DNA of 64,000 nucleotides, taken from the NCBI GenBank assembly GCA_000697665.1, contig KL197714.1:104201-168200 (forward strand). Direction: 5' to 3'. The stretch's first letter is position 1, and the number at the start of each line of letters is the position of its first letter. Positions 13,534 to 60,686 of the stretch are shown one piece after another. A program made the position numbers and the translations under genes. Source of the stretch: Jaapia argillacea MUCL 33604 (Eukaryota; Basidiomycota; Agaricomycetes; Jaapiales; Jaapiaceae). The notes under the pieces were generated by a model. That model saw only the letters and a list, made by a program, of their open reading frames with translations. It was not told the origin of the DNA and did no database searches.

Positions 13534-13720
13534 GCCTGACCGCCCATTATATGGTCATATATTCTTACCTGCTTTCGGGGCGGTACCTTCCTCGGAATAG
13601 ATTCGATTCAGCTACGAGCCTACAGCGCGTACCACGGACGAAAAGGATTTGTAAAACTGTTATATTTCACAGCCCACTATGTACAACAAATATGTACCTA
13701 CACAACGGACAGTAATAATA

Positions 13721-14551
13721 NNNNNNNNNNNNNNNNNNNNNNNNNNNNNNNNNNNNNNNNNNNNNNNNNNNNNNNNNNNNNNNNNNNNNNNNNNNNNNNN
13801 NNNNNNNNNNNNNNNNNNNNNNNNNNNNNNNNNNNNNNNNNNNNNNNNNNNNNNNNNNNNNNNNNNNNNNNNNNNNNNNNNNNNNNNNNNNNNNNNNNNN
13901 NNNNNNNNNNNNNNNNNNNNNNNNNNNNNNNNNNNNNNNNNNNNNNNNNNNNNNNNNNNNNNNNNNNNNNNNNNNNNNNNNNNNNNNNNNNNNNNNNNNN
14001 NNNNNNNNNNNNNNNNNNNNNNNNNNNNNNNNNNNNNNNNNNNNNNNNNNNNNNNNNNNNNNNNNNNNNNNNNNNNNNNNNNNNNNNNNNNNNNNNNNNN
14101 NNNNNNNNNNNNNNNNNNNNNNNNNNNNNNNNNNNNNNNNNNNNNNNNNNNNNNNNNNNNNNNNNNNNNNNNNNNNNNNNNNNNNNNNNNNNNNNNNNNN
14201 NNNNNNNNNNNNNNNNNNNNNNNNNNNNNNNNNNNNNNNNNNNNNNNNNNNNNNNNNNNNNNNNNNNNNNNNNNNNNNNNNNNNNNNNNNNNNNNNNNNN
14301 NNNNNNNNNNNNNNNNNNNNNNNNNNNNNNNNNNNNNNNNNNNNNNNNNNNNNNNNNNNNNNNNNNNNNNNNNNNNNNNNNNNNNNNNNNNNNNNNNNNN
14401 NNNNNNNNNNNNNNNNNNNNNNNNNNNNNNNNNNNNNNNNNNNNNNNNNNNNNNNNNNNNNNNNNNNNNNNNNNNNNNNNNNNNNNNNNNNNNNNNNNNN
14501 NNNNNNNNNNNNNNNNNNNNNNNNNNNNNNNNNNNNNNNNNNNNNNNNNNN
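13721..14551. other. assembly gap (run of N)
   Basis: 831 unresolved bases. Anything spanning it, including the start of family-3 copy 2, cannot be read. Confidence 1.
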
Positions 14552-15075
14552 CCCCGCCGATTTTGTGATGGTCTGCAACTTTCTGACTCTCTGCAACTCT
14601 TCCGCCCCTCCGACCACCGGCTGGGAAAGTGTTACTTCTAATCCTCATTCGTTACACTCTGGAAGATGACTACTTATTACGGTCCATGGGCTGGCGTGAT
14701 CACTGTGTGAGAGCAATGATTTCTCCCGTCCTCAATCAAACAGGCCCACCGTCACAGTCTCCACCACGTCTGCATAGCAGCTCTCACTACGCTTCAAATA
14801 GAGCAGAAAAAGTAGCGCCGTAGCGCCATCTTCTTTCTTCTGCCCCCTTCGACATTGCCTTCCTGTGACCACTCAGGCTATCACGATCGCAATCTCGGGA
14901 ATAGGCATCAGCCTCCGCGGGCAGCTCGTCGTAAGCAAAGATCCTCTCCTCTGGAACTCTCCCTACCTGAGTTAGACACACTCATCGTGGCCAATACATG
15001 GATGCATGAACGGTTCACTTGTGCGAAGTTCAAAATCGACGTGTTTATCACTATCGAAACTCTCGGCGACCTTAG

Positions 15076-40540: not shown

Positions 40541-43194
40541 TCAGAACTTCTCTGGGTCTTGGATGATGACCCCGGTGTCGAAATGTGCAGGCACTGCAGC
40601 TTGGCGGCCTCCAGCTGGTCTAGCTGTTGTTGTCTGTATCCGTTCGAGGTAAATGCCTTCTGTAGTGTGAGGATTGGAAGCGATGTAGATAACGACTTGC
40701 TTGTAGAGGTTGAAGTGGTCCATGCGATTGGGTTGAAGTGAACATTGAGGTAGGTTATCGTGGAGAAAGTTTGACAGAGCGGGCAGGAAGTTGGCTGTGC
40801 CGTAGTCTTCTTTGAGTCGTGTTACAGTGACGTTGAGAAACGGGCATGCACGAGCGACTGAGTAACTCCTCGGGGGTCCTTCAACATTCGTAGCCTTTTC
40901 AACAGCATCTTGAAGGTCCTTCACCACGTCTTCATTGTCGTCACTGTCTTCATCGACTTGAACAAACCTCCGTCGCCCCCGTTTCCACTCAATATACGAT
41001 GTTTGCATCTCAATCGCCTCTTGACGCTGGAGCCATCGGGTCATTTGCTCAGTGTAGTCACGCTTGTTACTTGCTCGATAGGCTTCCTTTGCGAAGTCGA
41101 TGTGGAGGCGTTCGGGGAGCTCGGTGTTGAAACCATCGGCACTGCCTTTTGATTGGATGGCTTGAACGTAGTGGACGAGGGAGGCCATCTTGGGAAAACT
41201 GAAGTTCTTCCACACACCTTGTTCAATCAGGACATCCTTGTTTGCGTGAAATGTATCGAGTGCCAACTGAAGCGCAGCAAGAGTGTCGGTGGTGTGAGAT
41301 CGAAACTGAGCATAGTAGATGAAGTCCAGAAGAGAGCGAGCAACTGCCAAGACTCGAGACGGAACAGCGCCAGCCACGACACCTATGAACACCATCTCCA
41401 TCTCCTTCTGCTCTGTGCCAGTCCACTGCTTGACGAGGGAGATCCCTTTTTTGAAATCACGCAGACCTGGGTAGTTATTCATTGCCTTAAAGCGAGCATC
41501 AACTTCTTTATCACCCATGATGCTTTGGCACCACTTGACGAGATGGTCTTTGAAGAGGCCTTTGTGAAGCTGATGAAGGAGGTCAGGTGTGAAGCACACG
41601 AAGATGTTGCAGTGGGGGAGTTCGGCCCAAAAAGGTTTGTGAACAGCCTGCAAACCTTCCGCCTCAAAACGCTCATCATCAATGTGATTCTTGTGGTTGG
41701 CGAGCACCTGTAGTGTCATTGCCACATCTTGTAACGTCGAGCAAACTGCATTTCCCTTCTCATTGGGTTTGCAAATGCACCTCGGACAATGGTTCTCGTT
41801 GCAACAGGCAACTAGACATTGTTCTAGATAATCGGCAACATATGCTGCCAGGATGGGATAGATGCAACAAACCCAACCATCAGCACAAGTCATCTCGACA
41901 CCTTCCCACCCAGCCTGGATGAGAGATTGTAGCATGAGACCCATGCAGTGATGGAAGAGGCAGTATCCGGCAAGTGAGCGAGATTTCTCAGTGAAGTTAT
42001 TGAGTTTGGTGACAGGTATGTAGCCGAGTAGCACATTTGCTCGAGATGATGACTGACGACGTGTTTCCTTCGAGATGTTTCCAATGGAGAGGTACACCAG
42101 CCATGCAGCTTTGTCGCCACGGAACTGAGACAGGTTGGTTTTGTCGGAGGCGAGAATGATCGGCGCAACAACTGCGCTGTCCACAAGCTTCCCCTGTCAT
42201 TCAAACACATCATTAATATCCACACACTTCATTCGTGACAAATTCTATCACCTGCACCTCCCACCACCAGTCTCCGGTCCACATCTCATCATACACCCTT
42301 GTCTGGCCCTCCTTGTCTGCAAAAACTCGTTCTGGAACATATGAGATCATCCCCTGGAATACGGGATTCCCTATCAACTCCCTAATGCATTCAACTGGGT
42401 CTCGCTTCCACAGCTCCACTGTCTCGACAATGGGTTTCTTATCTTCCCCCAAGATGTTGCCCATGACATCGACGAGCTCGCAAATCCATTCAGGACCATG
42501 GGGCAACTCATCAATCTTTTGGAGGAGACTGTATGAGTTATGATACGACGGCTGTGTTTGGTTTCGAGTCTGGAGAATGGTAAGCTGGGGTGACATTTGT
42601 ATTGGCCATCTCACTCACAATTGGTAGTTTCAAAAACTCGTTCATCTTTGATTGGGCAACATTTTGGACGAGCCACCTGCCCAACTCCCACTCCTCCTCA
42701 TCAAGAAATGGATTCCAATCATCTCCCTTCTCACCTTCTCGATGTCTTTCAAACACCGTCTTTTCCTTCTGAATCGGAGCCACAATCAGTTTCTCCATGA
42801 ACGCCTCCACGAAATGTGCCCCCTTTAAGTCTCGAAAGTATTCATCCTCGACCTCCTCGAGTTGGGGTTGTCACCATTGCCAATCGTCAGTATGCGGAGC
42901 CATTGGTACTGGGTGGGTCAGCAGTGCAAATCCCTTGCTGCTGTCTCTACCATCATCATCACCATGAACCTCAACGGTTGGATCATCAGCACCCTCCTCC
43001 GGCTCCTTCGCTGGTGGTGGATCTGCAGCCTGAGGTTCTGATGTCGAAGTGCCATCTTTTGAAGCTGCCTTCACTGACCTCTTCTCCATCTGATGCTTCC
43101 AGATTAGGCGACACTTGGGGGCATTTGAGATGTGATTTTTGACTGCCTTTGCATCCTTGAATGTTCGATTGCAATAACCACAAGTAACTGGCAT
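40541..43194 (-). CDS. Plavaka transposase (one in-frame TGA)
   Basis: Exons complement(join(40541..42193, 42252..42569, 42619..43194)) form one frame of 848 sense positions, interrupted by a single TGA at 42871-42873. The start MPVTCGYCNRTFKDAKAVKN is the N-terminal C2H2-like finger of these proteins. After the TGA come GRWLVQNVAQSKMNEFLKLP, then YSLLQKIDELPHGPEW, VVAPIILASDKTNLSQFRGD and KAAWLVYLSIGNISKETRR. CADGWVCCIYPILAAYVADY and HKLFKDH-like HKGLFKDHLVKW follow. This string is characteristic of agaric Plavaka transposases (KDZ/CACTA-related, DDE nuclease). The TGA sits where a CGA (Arg) would fit, consistent with C-to-T change at a CpG. The stop probably disables this copy. Confidence 0.85.
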
Positions 43195-54687: not shown

Positions 54688-55362
54688 TGTTATTCGACAC
54701 TCCTCACGGACATCTGATCCTTCCAATATATGGGATCATCAAGCACTATGACCATATTCCTCCTAAACACAAGGGATGGGTTCATACCCCTTCGACATCC
54801 TTCGATACATCCTCGTTCTTGCACATCCGACCTCTAGTGCATTATCCTCCACTCGCACCCAACCTTTGTCATTCTGACTCCTCATTACATCAGCACTCCA
54901 CCTTCCAGTACAACCTGGACCATGGACTGCAGACCCCTATGTCTCTGACTCACAGATCAGACCATCGACTGTGGACTACAGACTATGGACCCCTAACTAT
55001 GGACTATGGACCCCTAACTATGGACTATGGACCCCTAACTATGGACTTCTATCTTTCTGACTCACTCTGACTCATGCTTACTACTATCTTACTCATCCTC
55101 ACTATGGACTACAGACTGTGCTTCACCTTAGTATAAATACTTCCCTGTATTCACTAGTATTCCCCATCTTGTTCACTTTGTCAATATAGATCATTATCTT
55201 TATTCACATCATCCCAACTTGATTCCTGTCTGATCATCTGTCTGGAAACCTCTGATAGTCTCTCATCTTCTCGTCGTTCTACTTCTGTGGCTGTAGCCTA
55301 GGTATCATCAGAGAAGTATCAAGTCTTTCATCGTATACTTCGTTGAAGTAACAATCTTAACA
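54688..55362 (+). mobile_element. solo LTR, family L2-related
   Basis: TGTTA...TAACA ends. Its second half (from the GACTCACTCTGACTC region on) matches the L2 LTR at 53464..53853. Flanking 5-mers TTTCT and TCCCT agree at three of five positions. Inserted in the decayed gene copy. It retains more CpG than its surroundings, so it looks younger than them. Confidence 0.65.
54984..55045 (+). repeat. 21-bp tandem repeat inside the LTR
   Basis: About three units of TATGGACCCCTAACTATGGA-type sequence (21 bp), within the L2-related LTR. Confidence 0.75.
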
Positions 55363-56345: not shown

Positions 56346-59300
56346 TATCATCTATGTAAGGCTCTTGTCTGCAGTGTAGAGACACAAGATACATTGTACA
56401 TAGTTGAATTTCAGAAGTAAAAAGAGTATATCAATTCTATAATGCTGCAAACTAGTGTAAAAATAAAAAACTGTGAAAGCAAAGTTGAACACATACCAAG
56501 CTGATGATTCCCAATAAGAGAACCCAAGACCCTTTGACACCCCTCTGCATCAGCCCAAAAAGACTTGGGATCCATCTCCAGACTTTTGACAGCCTGTAAA
56601 AGCTTATTCAAAATTTCCAATGCCTTGACATTACACCACATTTGCTGAAACAGCATATCCCAAGCTATTGTACCACGATGAAGAAATGAGTGCTTTGCAA
56701 TTATAGCACTGGCTAGATGAAGGTAAAATATATCAATGACAAATATTAATGCTACATACCAGAAATTGCATAGATTGCTTGTTGATGAGTCGAGAGTTTA
56801 ATGGTCTATAAGATTATAACATTCAAATACAAAAGTAAGCAATATTAGAGCATACCTGAGCTTGGAGCCAGTTACAGAAATTGTGCAGAAGTGAGGAGTA
56901 GTATCTCTATACAAATAAAACCACATCAAGTCAATATAGATACAAATACTAGGAGGAGAATTATTGAGCAACTTACTTGCTACTCATATAATCAAAATAT
57001 CAAGCAAGGGTTTAACAAAAAGATAAATGAATGAGAATACCACTACACACAAACTAGTATGATTGTGAGACAAAGAGGAGCTGGCTAAGAAAGATACACC
57101 ATAGTAGACAAAGCACTTACATCCTGTTAAGGCAACCCAGAAAATAGAGAAAGTGAGCTGACTGGAAGACTGGGGCCAAAGTGGACAAAGTACTCACATC
57201 CTGTTGATGCAACCCAGGAAGCAGAGAACATAAGCTGGCTGAGAGACTGGAACCAAAGTGAAGAAAGCACTCACTCTCTGTTGATGCAATCCAGAGAGCA
57301 GAGAAGATAAGCTACCTGAGAGACTGGAGACAAAGGGGGCAAAGCACTCACTCTCTGTCAATGCAACCCAGGTAGCAGAGAACATAAGCTGCCTGAGAGA
57401 CTGAGGTCAAAGTAGACAAAGCACTCACAGCCTGTTGATATAACCCGGGGAGCAGAGAACATGAGCTGGCTGAGAGACTGGGGCCAAAGTAGACAAAGTA
57501 CTCACAACCTGTCAATGAAACCCAGAGAGCAGAGAATATGAACTAGCTGAAAAACTAGGGCCAAAGTGGATAAAGTACTCACAAACTGTCAATGCAACCC
57601 AGGGGCAAGACAACATAAGCTAGCTGAGAGACTGGGGCCAAAGTAGACAAAGTACTCACATCCTGTTAATGCAACCCAAGGAACAGAGAACATGAGCTAT
57701 CTGAGAGACTGGGACGGAGTGGACAAAGCACTCACGTCCTGTGAATGCAATGCAGGATGAAGAGAACATGAGCTGCCTGAGAGACTGTGGGGCCAAAGTG
57801 GACAAAGTACTACAAAGCACTCACATCCTGTTGATGCAATTCAGGGAGCAGAGACCATGAGCTGCCTGATAGATTGTAGGCCAAAGTGAACAAAGTACTA
57901 ACATCCTGTCAATGCAACACAGAAAGCAGAGAACATCAGCTGTCTGGGAGACTGGGGCCAAAGTAGATAAAGAACTCACTTTCTGTTGATACAATACAGA
58001 AATCGGAGAACATGAGCTGCTTGAGGGACTGGGGCCAAAGTGTACAAAGCACTCACAACCTGTGAATGTAACCCAAAGAGCAGACAGCATGAGCTGGCTG
58101 AGAAACTGGGCCAAAGTATACACAGCACTCACAAACTGTTGATGCAACCCAGGGAGGAGAGAAAATGAGCTGGCTGAGAGACTGGGGCCAAAGTGGGCTA
58201 AGCACTCACAATCTGTCAACACAACCCAGAGAGCAGAGAACATGAGCTTACTGAAAGACAGGGATTCAAGGGGGAAAATACTCACATCCTGTCAATGCAC
58301 ACCAGTGAGCACAGACAATGAGCTGGCTGAGAGACTGGGGCCAAAGTGAACAAAGCACTCACAACCTGTTGATGGGGCCCAGGAAGCAGAGAATATAAAC
58401 TGGCTGAGACTGGGGCCAAAGTGGACAAAACACTCACATCCTATTGATGCAATCCAGGGAGCAGAGAACATGAGCTGGCTGAGGAACTGGGGCCAGAGTA
58501 AACAAAGGACTCACAAACTATTATGCAACCCAAGAAGCAGAGAATATGAGCTGTCTAAGAGACTGGAGCTAAAGTGGACAAAGCCTCACCTCCTGTTAAT
58601 GCAACCCAAAGAGCAAAGAACATGAGCTGGCTGAGAGACTGGGGCCAAAGCAGACAAAGCACTCGCAGCCTGTCAATACAACCCAGAAAGCAGAGAACAT
58701 GAGCTAGATAAGTGATTGGAGTCAAAGTGGACAAATCACTCACAAACTGTGGATGCAATCCAGAGAGTAAGAATATGAGCTGCCTGAGAGACTGGGGCCA
58801 GAGTGGACAAAGCACTTACAAACTATTAATGCAATCCAGGGAGCAGACAATATAAGCTGGCTGGAAGAGACTGGTACCAAAGTGAACAAAGCACTCACCT
58901 CCTGTTGATGCAACCCAGGGATCAGAGAACATAAGCTGCCTGTGAGACCAAGGTCCAAAAGAACAAAGCACTCACAAACTGTTGATGCAACCCAGGTAGC
59001 AGAGAACATGAGCTATCTAAGATACTGGGGCCAAAGTGGACAAAGTACTTACATCCTGTTAATGCAACCCAAGGAGCAGAGAATATGAGCTCACTGAGAG
59101 ACTGGGGCTAAAGTGAACAAAACACTCACAACCTATTGATGTATTCCAAAGAGCAGAGAACATGAGCTGTCTGAGAGACCAGAGCCAAAGTGGACAAGGC
59201 ACTCACAACCTATCAGTGCAACCGAGGGGGCCAAACATTAGCTAGCTGAGAGAATGGAGCCAAGGTAGACAGAAAACTCACAACCTATCAATGCAACCCA

Positions 59301-60686
59301 GAGAGCACAAAACATGAGCTAGCTGAGAGAATGGGGCCAAAGTAGACAAAGCACTTACATCCTGTTGGTGCAATCCAGAGAGCAGAGAACATGAGCTGGA
59401 TGAGAGATGGGGGCCAAAGTAGACTAAACACTTACCCACTGTTAATACAACCCAGGAAGCAGAGAACATCAATTCGCTGGAAGCCCGAGACCAAACTTTA
59501 TCATGTACTGACTCTCCATGGATACCAAGACAATACCCTTCCAACCCATTTCTTGAAAACCAACTCTTCTTGATTTCTATATCTCTTATATACCAACTCA
59601 CAAGCTCTGTATCTCTTGTCAGTTAAGACCAATAATACACAAGCTTCTTACCTCTCAACTCCCCATTTTTCACATAAGTCCAAATTATTTCTTTGAATAC
59701 ACACAAATAGCTGCCTTAATACATCATCTCCAAGGGCATCTGCAGTCTTCTCCAGCAACTCATAACAATTTGTTTCTGCCTTGTTCATATCTATATGGGA
59801 TGTAAATGATAAATGATATATAGAGAGAAATAATTCTTTCCTTGAAGTTGAACACTCTTTGAAGGTGGAAACCTTGTTTCATTAACAATATTTGCACATT
59901 TTGCAGTGAAACAATTTGAGGCAGATCTAGACGCCTCATCAAAGGCATCATCCTCATCCCATCCTTGACCCATCAGGAATTGCTAAGTCTGCAACACAAA
60001 ATCATCAAATTTTGTGTAGATAGCAATCACCGGAACTATAAAGTGTTCACATATATTTCCCCACTAGAGAGCAACCATTACTCACCTGCCCCAGGGTCAC
60101 ACTCCTGGAAAAATCTTGCCTCTGCTCCAGTCAAGAGACGACTTGCATTATCAGTTGGAAGACAATACCTTCTCACGGTCGAGGCATCAGTGTCCAGTCA
60201 TAAAATGCAAAGTGATCACCCACCAGATGGCATGTAGCTGCTCCGAGGAGCTCCTTCTCATCCCTCGCTGTTCAATAAAGTCTTGTACAATCTTGAATTC
60301 TGAAGTGGATCCACATTCAAATCCACGAGAATCATGGAAAATATATCCAGGATTGGCCTCAAATATCATCTCATTCTCGATGTTGTGTTCACCCCGCTGT
60401 CACTTGGTATTGGCTCAGATCGAGTGATTGAATCATCTACTACATACCTCCCTGCTTGGTGCAAGAGCTGAGAGGTCAATCTGGTAGGCAGATGATAGGG
60501 ATTACTTCTCACAGTCAAGTCCAATCCGCCACTTACCTCCTCGCGCTTGGAGTTGTAGATCTTTGGCTGATCTGTCGTATTGCAGACTTTTTGGAGAACC
60601 GTCGTCTTTCCTGCGTTTGCTCTGCCCATCACCAGAACGCGGAACTGGCGGTACTTCTGCCTGAGTCGAAGGGTTCGGTCGTCCAT
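56346..60686 (-). pseudogene. P-loop GTPase (G-domain) gene, broken, with a giant repeat intron
   Basis: Minus strand. Exon 60686-60537 reads MDDRTLRLRQKYRQFRVLVM, then GRANAGKT (G1). Next come an exon with HNIENEMIFEANPGYIF and HDSRGF (G3), one with YCLPTDNASRLLTGAEARFF, and one with VPVIAIYTKFDD (G4 TKFD). A TAG follows VLQT near 59980, and a frame change lies before NNLDLCEKWGVER (59690-59650). After the repeat-filled intron come three clean exons: 56906-56856 (RYYSSLLHNFCNWLQAQ), one reading TIKLSTHQQAIYAIS, and one reading FLHRGTIAWDMLFQQMWCNV. It resembles the abundant agaric MMR_HSR1-type G proteins of unknown role. The intact 3' exons against damaged 5' exons suggest recent loss. Confidence 0.75.
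57060..59490 (-). repeat. 77-bp tandem array of intron-like units, about 31 junctions
   Basis: About 31 head-to-tail units of 72-81 bp (mean 77.1 between 57115 and 59428). On the minus strand each unit starts GTGAGTGCTTTGTC, continues through a C/T-rich stretch with CAGTCTCTCAGCC, and ends GCATCAACAG-like. All 31 junctions keep an AG end. 23 have GTGAGT, five GTAAGT, and three a one-base variant. Exactly three bases lie between AG and the next GT: GAT, GTT, TTT, AGA, GAG, GCT, GAC, AAA, ATT or TGG, never a stop codon. The array fills one intron of the GTPase gene. Confidence 0.9.

Follow-up and report, generated by a model that had tools for sequence, protein, structure and literature searches.

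Are the repeats of a long tandem array inside a fungal gene individual introns, or do they make up a single long one? The question is raised by a stretch of 64,000 nucleotides (nt) from Jaapia argillacea MUCL 33604 (assembly GCA_000697665.1, contig KL197714.1, positions 104,201 to 168,200 of the forward strand), here called the window and numbered from its first letter. On its minus strand, a gene for what we take to be a P-loop protein (GRANAGKTT) is interrupted by units of ~77 nt, each of which looks like an intron. An earlier sequence-only reading of this DNA had offered two explanations: either a spliced intron was amplified with its borders, or the juxtaposed sites allow one overlong intron to be removed in steps. 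We analysed the layout, conservation and reading phase of the array. We hold it to be probable, at roughly two chances in three, that an intron and a codon were amplified in tandem, giving ~34 short introns that are split by one-codon exons and removed unit by unit.

Layout of the array

Tandem Repeats Finder reported a tandem repeat at 57099-59469 with a period of 77, 30.7 copies and 76% matches. On the minus strand, 57121-59512 comprises 31 tandem units of ~77 nt apiece, each running from a donor through a branch-point-like box to YAG and three further bases, upon which the next donor follows. Scanning 56800-59700 on the minus strand for YAG-NNN-G(T/C)NAG, we obtained 31 array sites with a spacing of 75-79 (one 89) and one further site at 56982. 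The strict form of this pattern, YAGNNNGTRAGT, occurred 31 times in the window vs 1.80 times expected from shuffles (maximum in 100 shuffles: 9). Twenty-eight of these 31 occurrences lay inside the array, one was the 56982 site and two were elsewhere in the window, which corresponds to 2 per 122,400 positions outside 56900-59700 on both strands. These results confirm the tandem layout of intron-like units. They also match the earlier count of 31/31 canonical AG sites and 28/31 canonical donors, and the description of each 77-base-pair unit as a complete minimal intron in appearance holds, with a donor, a box and a YAG in every unit.

The spacer measured 3 nt at 31/31 array sites and was a stop codon at none of them (0/31). 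When the candidate introns at the downstream end of the array were included, the acceptor was YAG in 34/34; the donor was GT in 33/34 and GC in 1/34, and it conformed to GTRAGT in 29/34. The motif of a branch-point box is YTNAY. Variation among the units tracks the splice consensus, with R at +3, YTNAY with N as the freest position, and YAG with C or T. Outside the array, similarity to the unit was limited to matches of 10-14 bases within the window. We saw no higher-order repeats and no similarity between neighbours in particular (mean identity at each lag from 1 to 25 lay within 0.760-0.798).

Conservation of the splice positions

We cut the array at its donors into units u00-u30 and aligned these with MAFFT. 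Counts on aligned units refer to the 30 units u01-u30; u00 was excluded because its borders were then uncertain. The alignment has 77 majority columns: 13 splice columns (six of the donor, +1 to +6; the four fixed ones of YTNAY; three of YAG), 61 other intron columns and 3 spacer columns. The box A sits 28-30 nt before the last base of the acceptor. In the splice columns we counted 16 changes in 390 cells (4.1%), vs 15.2% in the other intron columns and 36.7% in the spacers. That the unit bodies vary and the splice sites do not was a claim of the sequence-only reading, which had set this comparison beforehand as a test of itself and withstood it.

The splice mask had the lowest score among its 77 rotations. 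Its degeneracy-aware violations numbered 3, compared with 19 for the next best rotation and a mean of 44, and random sets of 13 of the 74 columns were as conserved as the mask with P = 1.3e-4. Without base stratification, donor and acceptor alone gave P = 0.006, and GT and AG alone P = 0.003. The mutation spectrum in the units is unequal, C to T and G to A predominating, and the test was therefore rerun with base-matched columns. Against body columns, the 16 changes observed in the 13 columns compared with 53.4 expected (0/100,000 draws); against a pool that included the splice columns, 45.2 were expected (P = 3.6e-4). For donor and acceptor, the columns that had been named beforehand, the numbers were 13 observed vs 38.4 expected (P = 1e-4). 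The donor alone (P = 0.001), the box alone (P = 0.003) and GT and AG alone (1 observed vs 15.9 expected, P = 2.6e-4) gave similar results.

Under the base-specific mutation spectrum of the body, 38.7 violations would be expected instead of 3. All 13 positions were intact in 27/30 units vs 7.6 predicted by that spectrum, for which P is about 1e-13 provided that the units are independent. The three deviating units carry one GC donor, one T at +3 and one deletion at +6, all of them mild changes.

An AG exclusion zone is the mark expected of acceptors that are used. The stretch from box to acceptor contained 0 AG in 866 nt, vs 85 AG in 1120 nt upstream (30 units); simulations with the observed number of changes and the upstream spectrum gave a mean of 5.2 AG between box and acceptor (P = 0.001). 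YTNAY, YAG and the lack of an intervening AG were each found in 30/30 aligned units, and u00 and the downstream introns L1 and L3 are free of AG between box and acceptor as well. GTRAGT on the opposite strand was found in 0/30 units at any column.

The maximum-likelihood tree of the units was star-like: internal branches made up 9.6% of its length, only one node had more than 62% support and the mean terminal branch was ~0.11 per site. Parsimony required 1.08 steps per splice column and 3.56 per body column, with a total of 14 for the splice mask and 20 for the next rotation. The shape of the tree indicates that the units diverged largely independently, so that the alignment cells are near-independent, although not wholly so. 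From these patterns we infer purifying selection for the splicing of nearly every unit. Specificity comes from the donor, from the pattern of substitutions and from the lack of AG between box and acceptor.

Borders and phase of the array

In the sequence-only reading, 59650-56906 was a single overlong intron that contained the array. Upstream of 59651, the exon can be read without stops in one frame and finishes in phase 2, whereas the exons of 51, 46 and 216 nt downstream fit together only with phase-0 entry at 56906, and direct splicing of 59652 to 56906 meets stops. As the triplets preserve phase, joining 59652 to an array acceptor, whichever one is chosen, would be equally faulty. The single overlong intron was thus abandoned. 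The phase conflict is solved by a 45-nt intron followed by a 94-nt exon that ends in phase 0 (Table 1). With these, the gap 56907-59512 can be parsed as 34 introns and 33 one-codon exons in phase 0, with no stop. We also considered the triplets in phase 2, as they would be read from the 59651 donor. They would encode a hydrophobic, helix-like peptide, but this candidate was dropped because the downstream exons need phase 0.

At the downstream end, the TTT and CAA sites were chosen with the same 3-nt spacing as in the array. L1 is, to judge by its similarity to the consensus, a decayed unit. L2 and L3 are less certain as ladder introns, and L2 is the least certain step, with its GTGTGT donor and one AG (GAG) beside its TAG; the final 141 nt before CAA may be one intron. 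At 56971-56982 (minus), TAG-CAA-GTAAGT has the array-like 3-nt layout, with flanking introns unlike the unit. Taken together, the space between two coding exons appears to be filled by juxtaposed sites in a manner more like a run of short introns than like ratchet points in a long intron.

Table 1. Features of the array and of the host gene around it (positions in the window; z, similarity to the unit)
Feature	Position	Strand	Description
5' part of host gene, six exons	59652..60686	minus	P-loop protein (GRANAGKTT), presumed
Separate intron, 45 nt	59607..59651	minus	GTAAGA ... CTGAC ... ACAG; formerly read as start of the array intron
Upstream coding exon, probable, 94 nt	59513..59606	minus	ends ...VLSWYPWR, phase 0 at first unit's donor; needed for frame
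u00, first unit	59439..59512	minus	74-nt intron, donor GTCAGT, branch-like TTGAT 30 nt before acceptor's end (AACAG), unit-like core z = 9.9
Spacer after u00	59436-59438	minus	TGG
u01-u30, 30 tandem units	57121..59435	minus	intron 72-86 nt (74 nt in 20/30) + 3-nt spacer; GTRAGT ... YTNAY ... YAG NNN
L1, unit-related last intron, 67 nt	57054..57120	minus	GTAAGT...CTAG; z = 5.5 vs unit consensus
Spacer after L1	57051-57053	minus	TTT
L2, candidate intron, 71 nt	56980..57050	minus	weak donor GTGTGT ... GAGTAG; z = 0.0 vs unit
Spacer after L2	56977-56979	minus	CAA
L3, candidate intron, 70 nt	56907..56976	minus	GTAAGT ... TTGAC ... TATAG; z = 0.1 vs unit
Downstream coding exon, 51 nt	56856..56906	minus	RYYSSLLHNFCNWLQAQ, phase 0 at both ends
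Next two coding exons, 46 + 216 nt	56760-56805, 56497-56712	minus	phases demand phase 0 at 56906

Proposed origin and removal of the units

We propose that a 74-nt intron and one adjoining codon were amplified in tandem, in phase 0, within the gene of a fungal P-loop protein. The product would be ~34 short introns with one-codon exons between them; short introns are also the rule elsewhere in the host gene. Each unit would be removed singly by intron definition, now or until recently, and selection would have kept the donor, branch point and acceptor in nearly all units while the remainder drifted. The source of this selection would be the reading frame: a retained unit would cause a frameshift or add a stop in 29/31 cases. 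In fungi, basidiomycetes included, introns are thought to be recognised as units, and an error at a single site tends to result in retention, as outlined in PMC2397502. Intron definition would protect donors, branch points and acceptors alike; free skipping provides no such account.

The spliceosome would use these sites on neighbouring introns in succession, since both sites of a 3-nt exon could hardly be bound simultaneously. Exons as short as 3 nt and even 1 nt have been described, for which it was proposed that the flanking introns are removed sequentially (PMC4674806). The codons would stay in the mRNA and add up to 33 residues, WDVVVDFEFFAEFDVDIFVKDDDDFVARRDDFQ; their inclusion seems the simplest outcome of unit-by-unit removal. 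Omission of any subset of the triplets preserves the frame. It is conceivable, though we are doubtful, that the locus gives rise to mRNAs with a variable in-frame subset of up to 33 single-codon exons. In that case, one locus would produce a great many proteins that vary in a short acidic-hydrophobic segment, and the length of the array would evolve as a codon repeat in which each codon has its own intron.

Amplification of a spliced intron with its borders, one of the two earlier suggestions, fits best and is supported in part; to it we would add the one codon per unit. More generally, the look of complete introns and the selective conservation stood up to the analysis, the intron borders did not, and ratchet points in a long intron seem the less likely arrangement.

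If our explanation is correct, the locus is a natural experiment on minimal splicing, in which about thirty related short introns with 3-nt exons diverged largely independently in one transcript, and it reveals the intron positions that selection guards. It would raise the question of how the spliceosome handles dozens of consecutive 3-nt exons. It would also present a concrete route of intron multiplication, in which every tandem copy brings along the signals for its own removal and contributes one codon.

Weighing of the explanations

A number of observations weigh against tandem introns under selection. Five non-splice alignment columns (48, 52, 53, 63 and 84) are as invariant as the splice columns, so the splice consensus does not fully account for the conservation; among the invariant body positions are the A at -4 and the AG that immediately precedes the branch-point-like box. 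Certain other body columns are as variable as the spacer. The opposite strand holds a YTNAY column in 29/30 units and a YAG column in 22/30, and the gene strand has three more YAG columns before the box (in 28, 27 and 22 of 30 units), which means that box and acceptor alone are not specific; the YTNAY box, in addition, was picked after the alignment had been inspected. As regards the borders, 59513-59606 is open in a second frame too, L2 and L3 are unlike the unit, and the first donor and that of L2 read GTCAGT and GTGTGT. The triplets are free of stops, as the sequence-only reading had said, but this carries no information on coding (0/33 with two extra triplets; P = 0.40 in column shuffles for phase 0, 0.26 in phase 2), and we dropped it as coding evidence. 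The host gene has an in-frame TAG at 59983-59985 (minus) in its fifth exon, after ...YTKFDDFVLQT, and two weak splice sites, the acceptor AAG at 60169 and the donor GTGTTC at 59855. It may be a young pseudogene, or an allele, or contain a sequencing error, and the conservation of the array would then record recent rather than present selection.

Conservation of all sites would be explained equally well if the units were spliced from inside, shrinking an intron of 2606 nt until donor 59512 joins acceptor 56907, with the triplets never appearing in mRNA. The cryptic recursive-splicing exons of Drosophila are described as always skipped (PMC8605326), and 2606 nt far exceeds the other introns of the host gene (45-65 nt, one 128), which would also speak for such nested removal. 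However, most inner donors are stronger than the outer one, GTCAGT, which would nevertheless have to outlast them. Nested removal also needs neither a constant 3-nt spacer nor phase-0 borders, although a constant spacer could be inherited. We consider it unlikely. An inert 77-base-pair minisatellite, whose motifs are splice-like by origin and merely inherited in an intron removed in a single step, would explain why tandem units have motifs in common, namely by descent, and also the five invariant body columns and the YTNAY and YAG columns on the opposite strand. Yet the units diverged largely independently and the splice positions stayed, the variation follows the splice code and there is an AG exclusion zone; internal sites that were not used would be expected to decay or to be removed by selection. 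This makes an inert array very improbable. We give still less credence to an array that hosts small RNAs, such as small nucleolar RNAs (snoRNAs), or other structured elements. The locus SNHG14, with 29 and 48 tandem introns that host snoRNAs (PMC11608373), is a precedent. A few body columns of our array are invariant beyond what the splice consensus explains, and the string ANANNA, a loose H-box pattern, occurs in 17/31 units. C and D boxes are motifs of snoRNAs; in our array the C box was found in 0/31 units and the D box in 4/31. At gathering scores, Rfam had no match anywhere in the window, and we found no RNA structure in the consensus unit, which folds worse than its shuffles (z +1.8).

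Comparison with known systems

The units themselves have the features of U2-type introns, namely a GTRAGT-like GT donor and an AG-free stretch from the box to YAG. We compared the array with known systems as these are presented in the cited articles. In the human UBC array (PMC10809524), the site of each tandem unit can be used as donor and as acceptor, and skipping of any number of units keeps the frame and yields a ladder of isoforms. There, however, the monomer is a 228-nt coding sequence with a single, poorly conserved AG/GT site, whereas the unit described here is an intron that includes a branch-like box of its own, and its acceptor and donor are separate, 3 nt apart and strongly conserved among units. 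Ratchet points of Drosophila (PMC8605326) likewise have acceptor and donor juxtaposed between two exons. They are few, define exons of 0 nt, lie in very long introns and have a downstream cryptic exon; the array has ~33 sites, one every ~77 nt, with 3-nt spacers and complete short introns. An abutting AG/GT, as in zero-nucleotide ratchet points, was present at none of the 31 array sites, all of which have the 3-nt spacer.

Fungal stwintrons (PMC9024468, PMC7138796, PMC8469720) also consist of several U2 introns that are spliced consecutively and occur in repeated, sequence-similar copies. In contrast to the array, they are nested, the inner intron interrupting a splice element of the outer one, and their copies lie at many sites. 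Our introns stand side by side in one tandem array; each unit has its own donor, box and acceptor, and none interrupts an element of another. The introns of SNHG14 (SNORD115/116; PMC11608373) resemble the array in that dozens of consecutive related introns lie in one transcript, but they host snoRNAs, while the array lies in a protein-coding frame, with what would be one-codon exons, and shows no sign of snoRNAs. Introners (PMC9860276) are families of similar introns that arose by multiplication, and many genes have received such copies by insertion; neither 'tandem' nor 'basidiomyc' appears in the main text of that article. Introns of human genes can arise from tandem repeats located at exon-intron borders (PMC2812944). 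Among the matches listed in our full-text searches, as represented by titles and the starts of abstracts, there was no layout of complete tandem introns split by single codons.

The host gene and its surroundings

Exon 1 of the host gene scored 22.9 bits against Pfam Arf, just over the cut-off of 22.3. The joined 284 residues scored 18.7 bits and thus fell under it, and the C-terminal 109 residues had no Pfam match. These borderline scores place the product no more narrowly than among P-loop proteins. None of the nine other introns of the host gene that we compared was supported as the source of the unit (best z 1.7; the fifth of the nine had a misplaced border). Unit patterns had no match in viral contigs (two patterns) or in contigs of prokaryote genomes (one of the two), and a protein search of the viral contigs gave 13 stretches with a pattern, none of them confirmed; as these collections are not meant for fungi, such negatives carry little weight.

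Elsewhere in the window, a large open frame at 40541-42184 (minus) encodes a Plavaka transposase (Pfam, 1.3e-86), and there are partial genes of a reverse transcriptase and of a glycosyl hydrolase of family 1, besides short introns. Contents of this kind would by themselves place the window probably with the basidiomycetes, and perhaps with the Agaricomycetes. A run of N at ~13700-14600 (831 N in the window) probably reflects masking or a gap in the assembly. At 54981-55047, 1-2 kilobases past the end of the host gene, a 21-base-pair repeat is present in three perfect copies.

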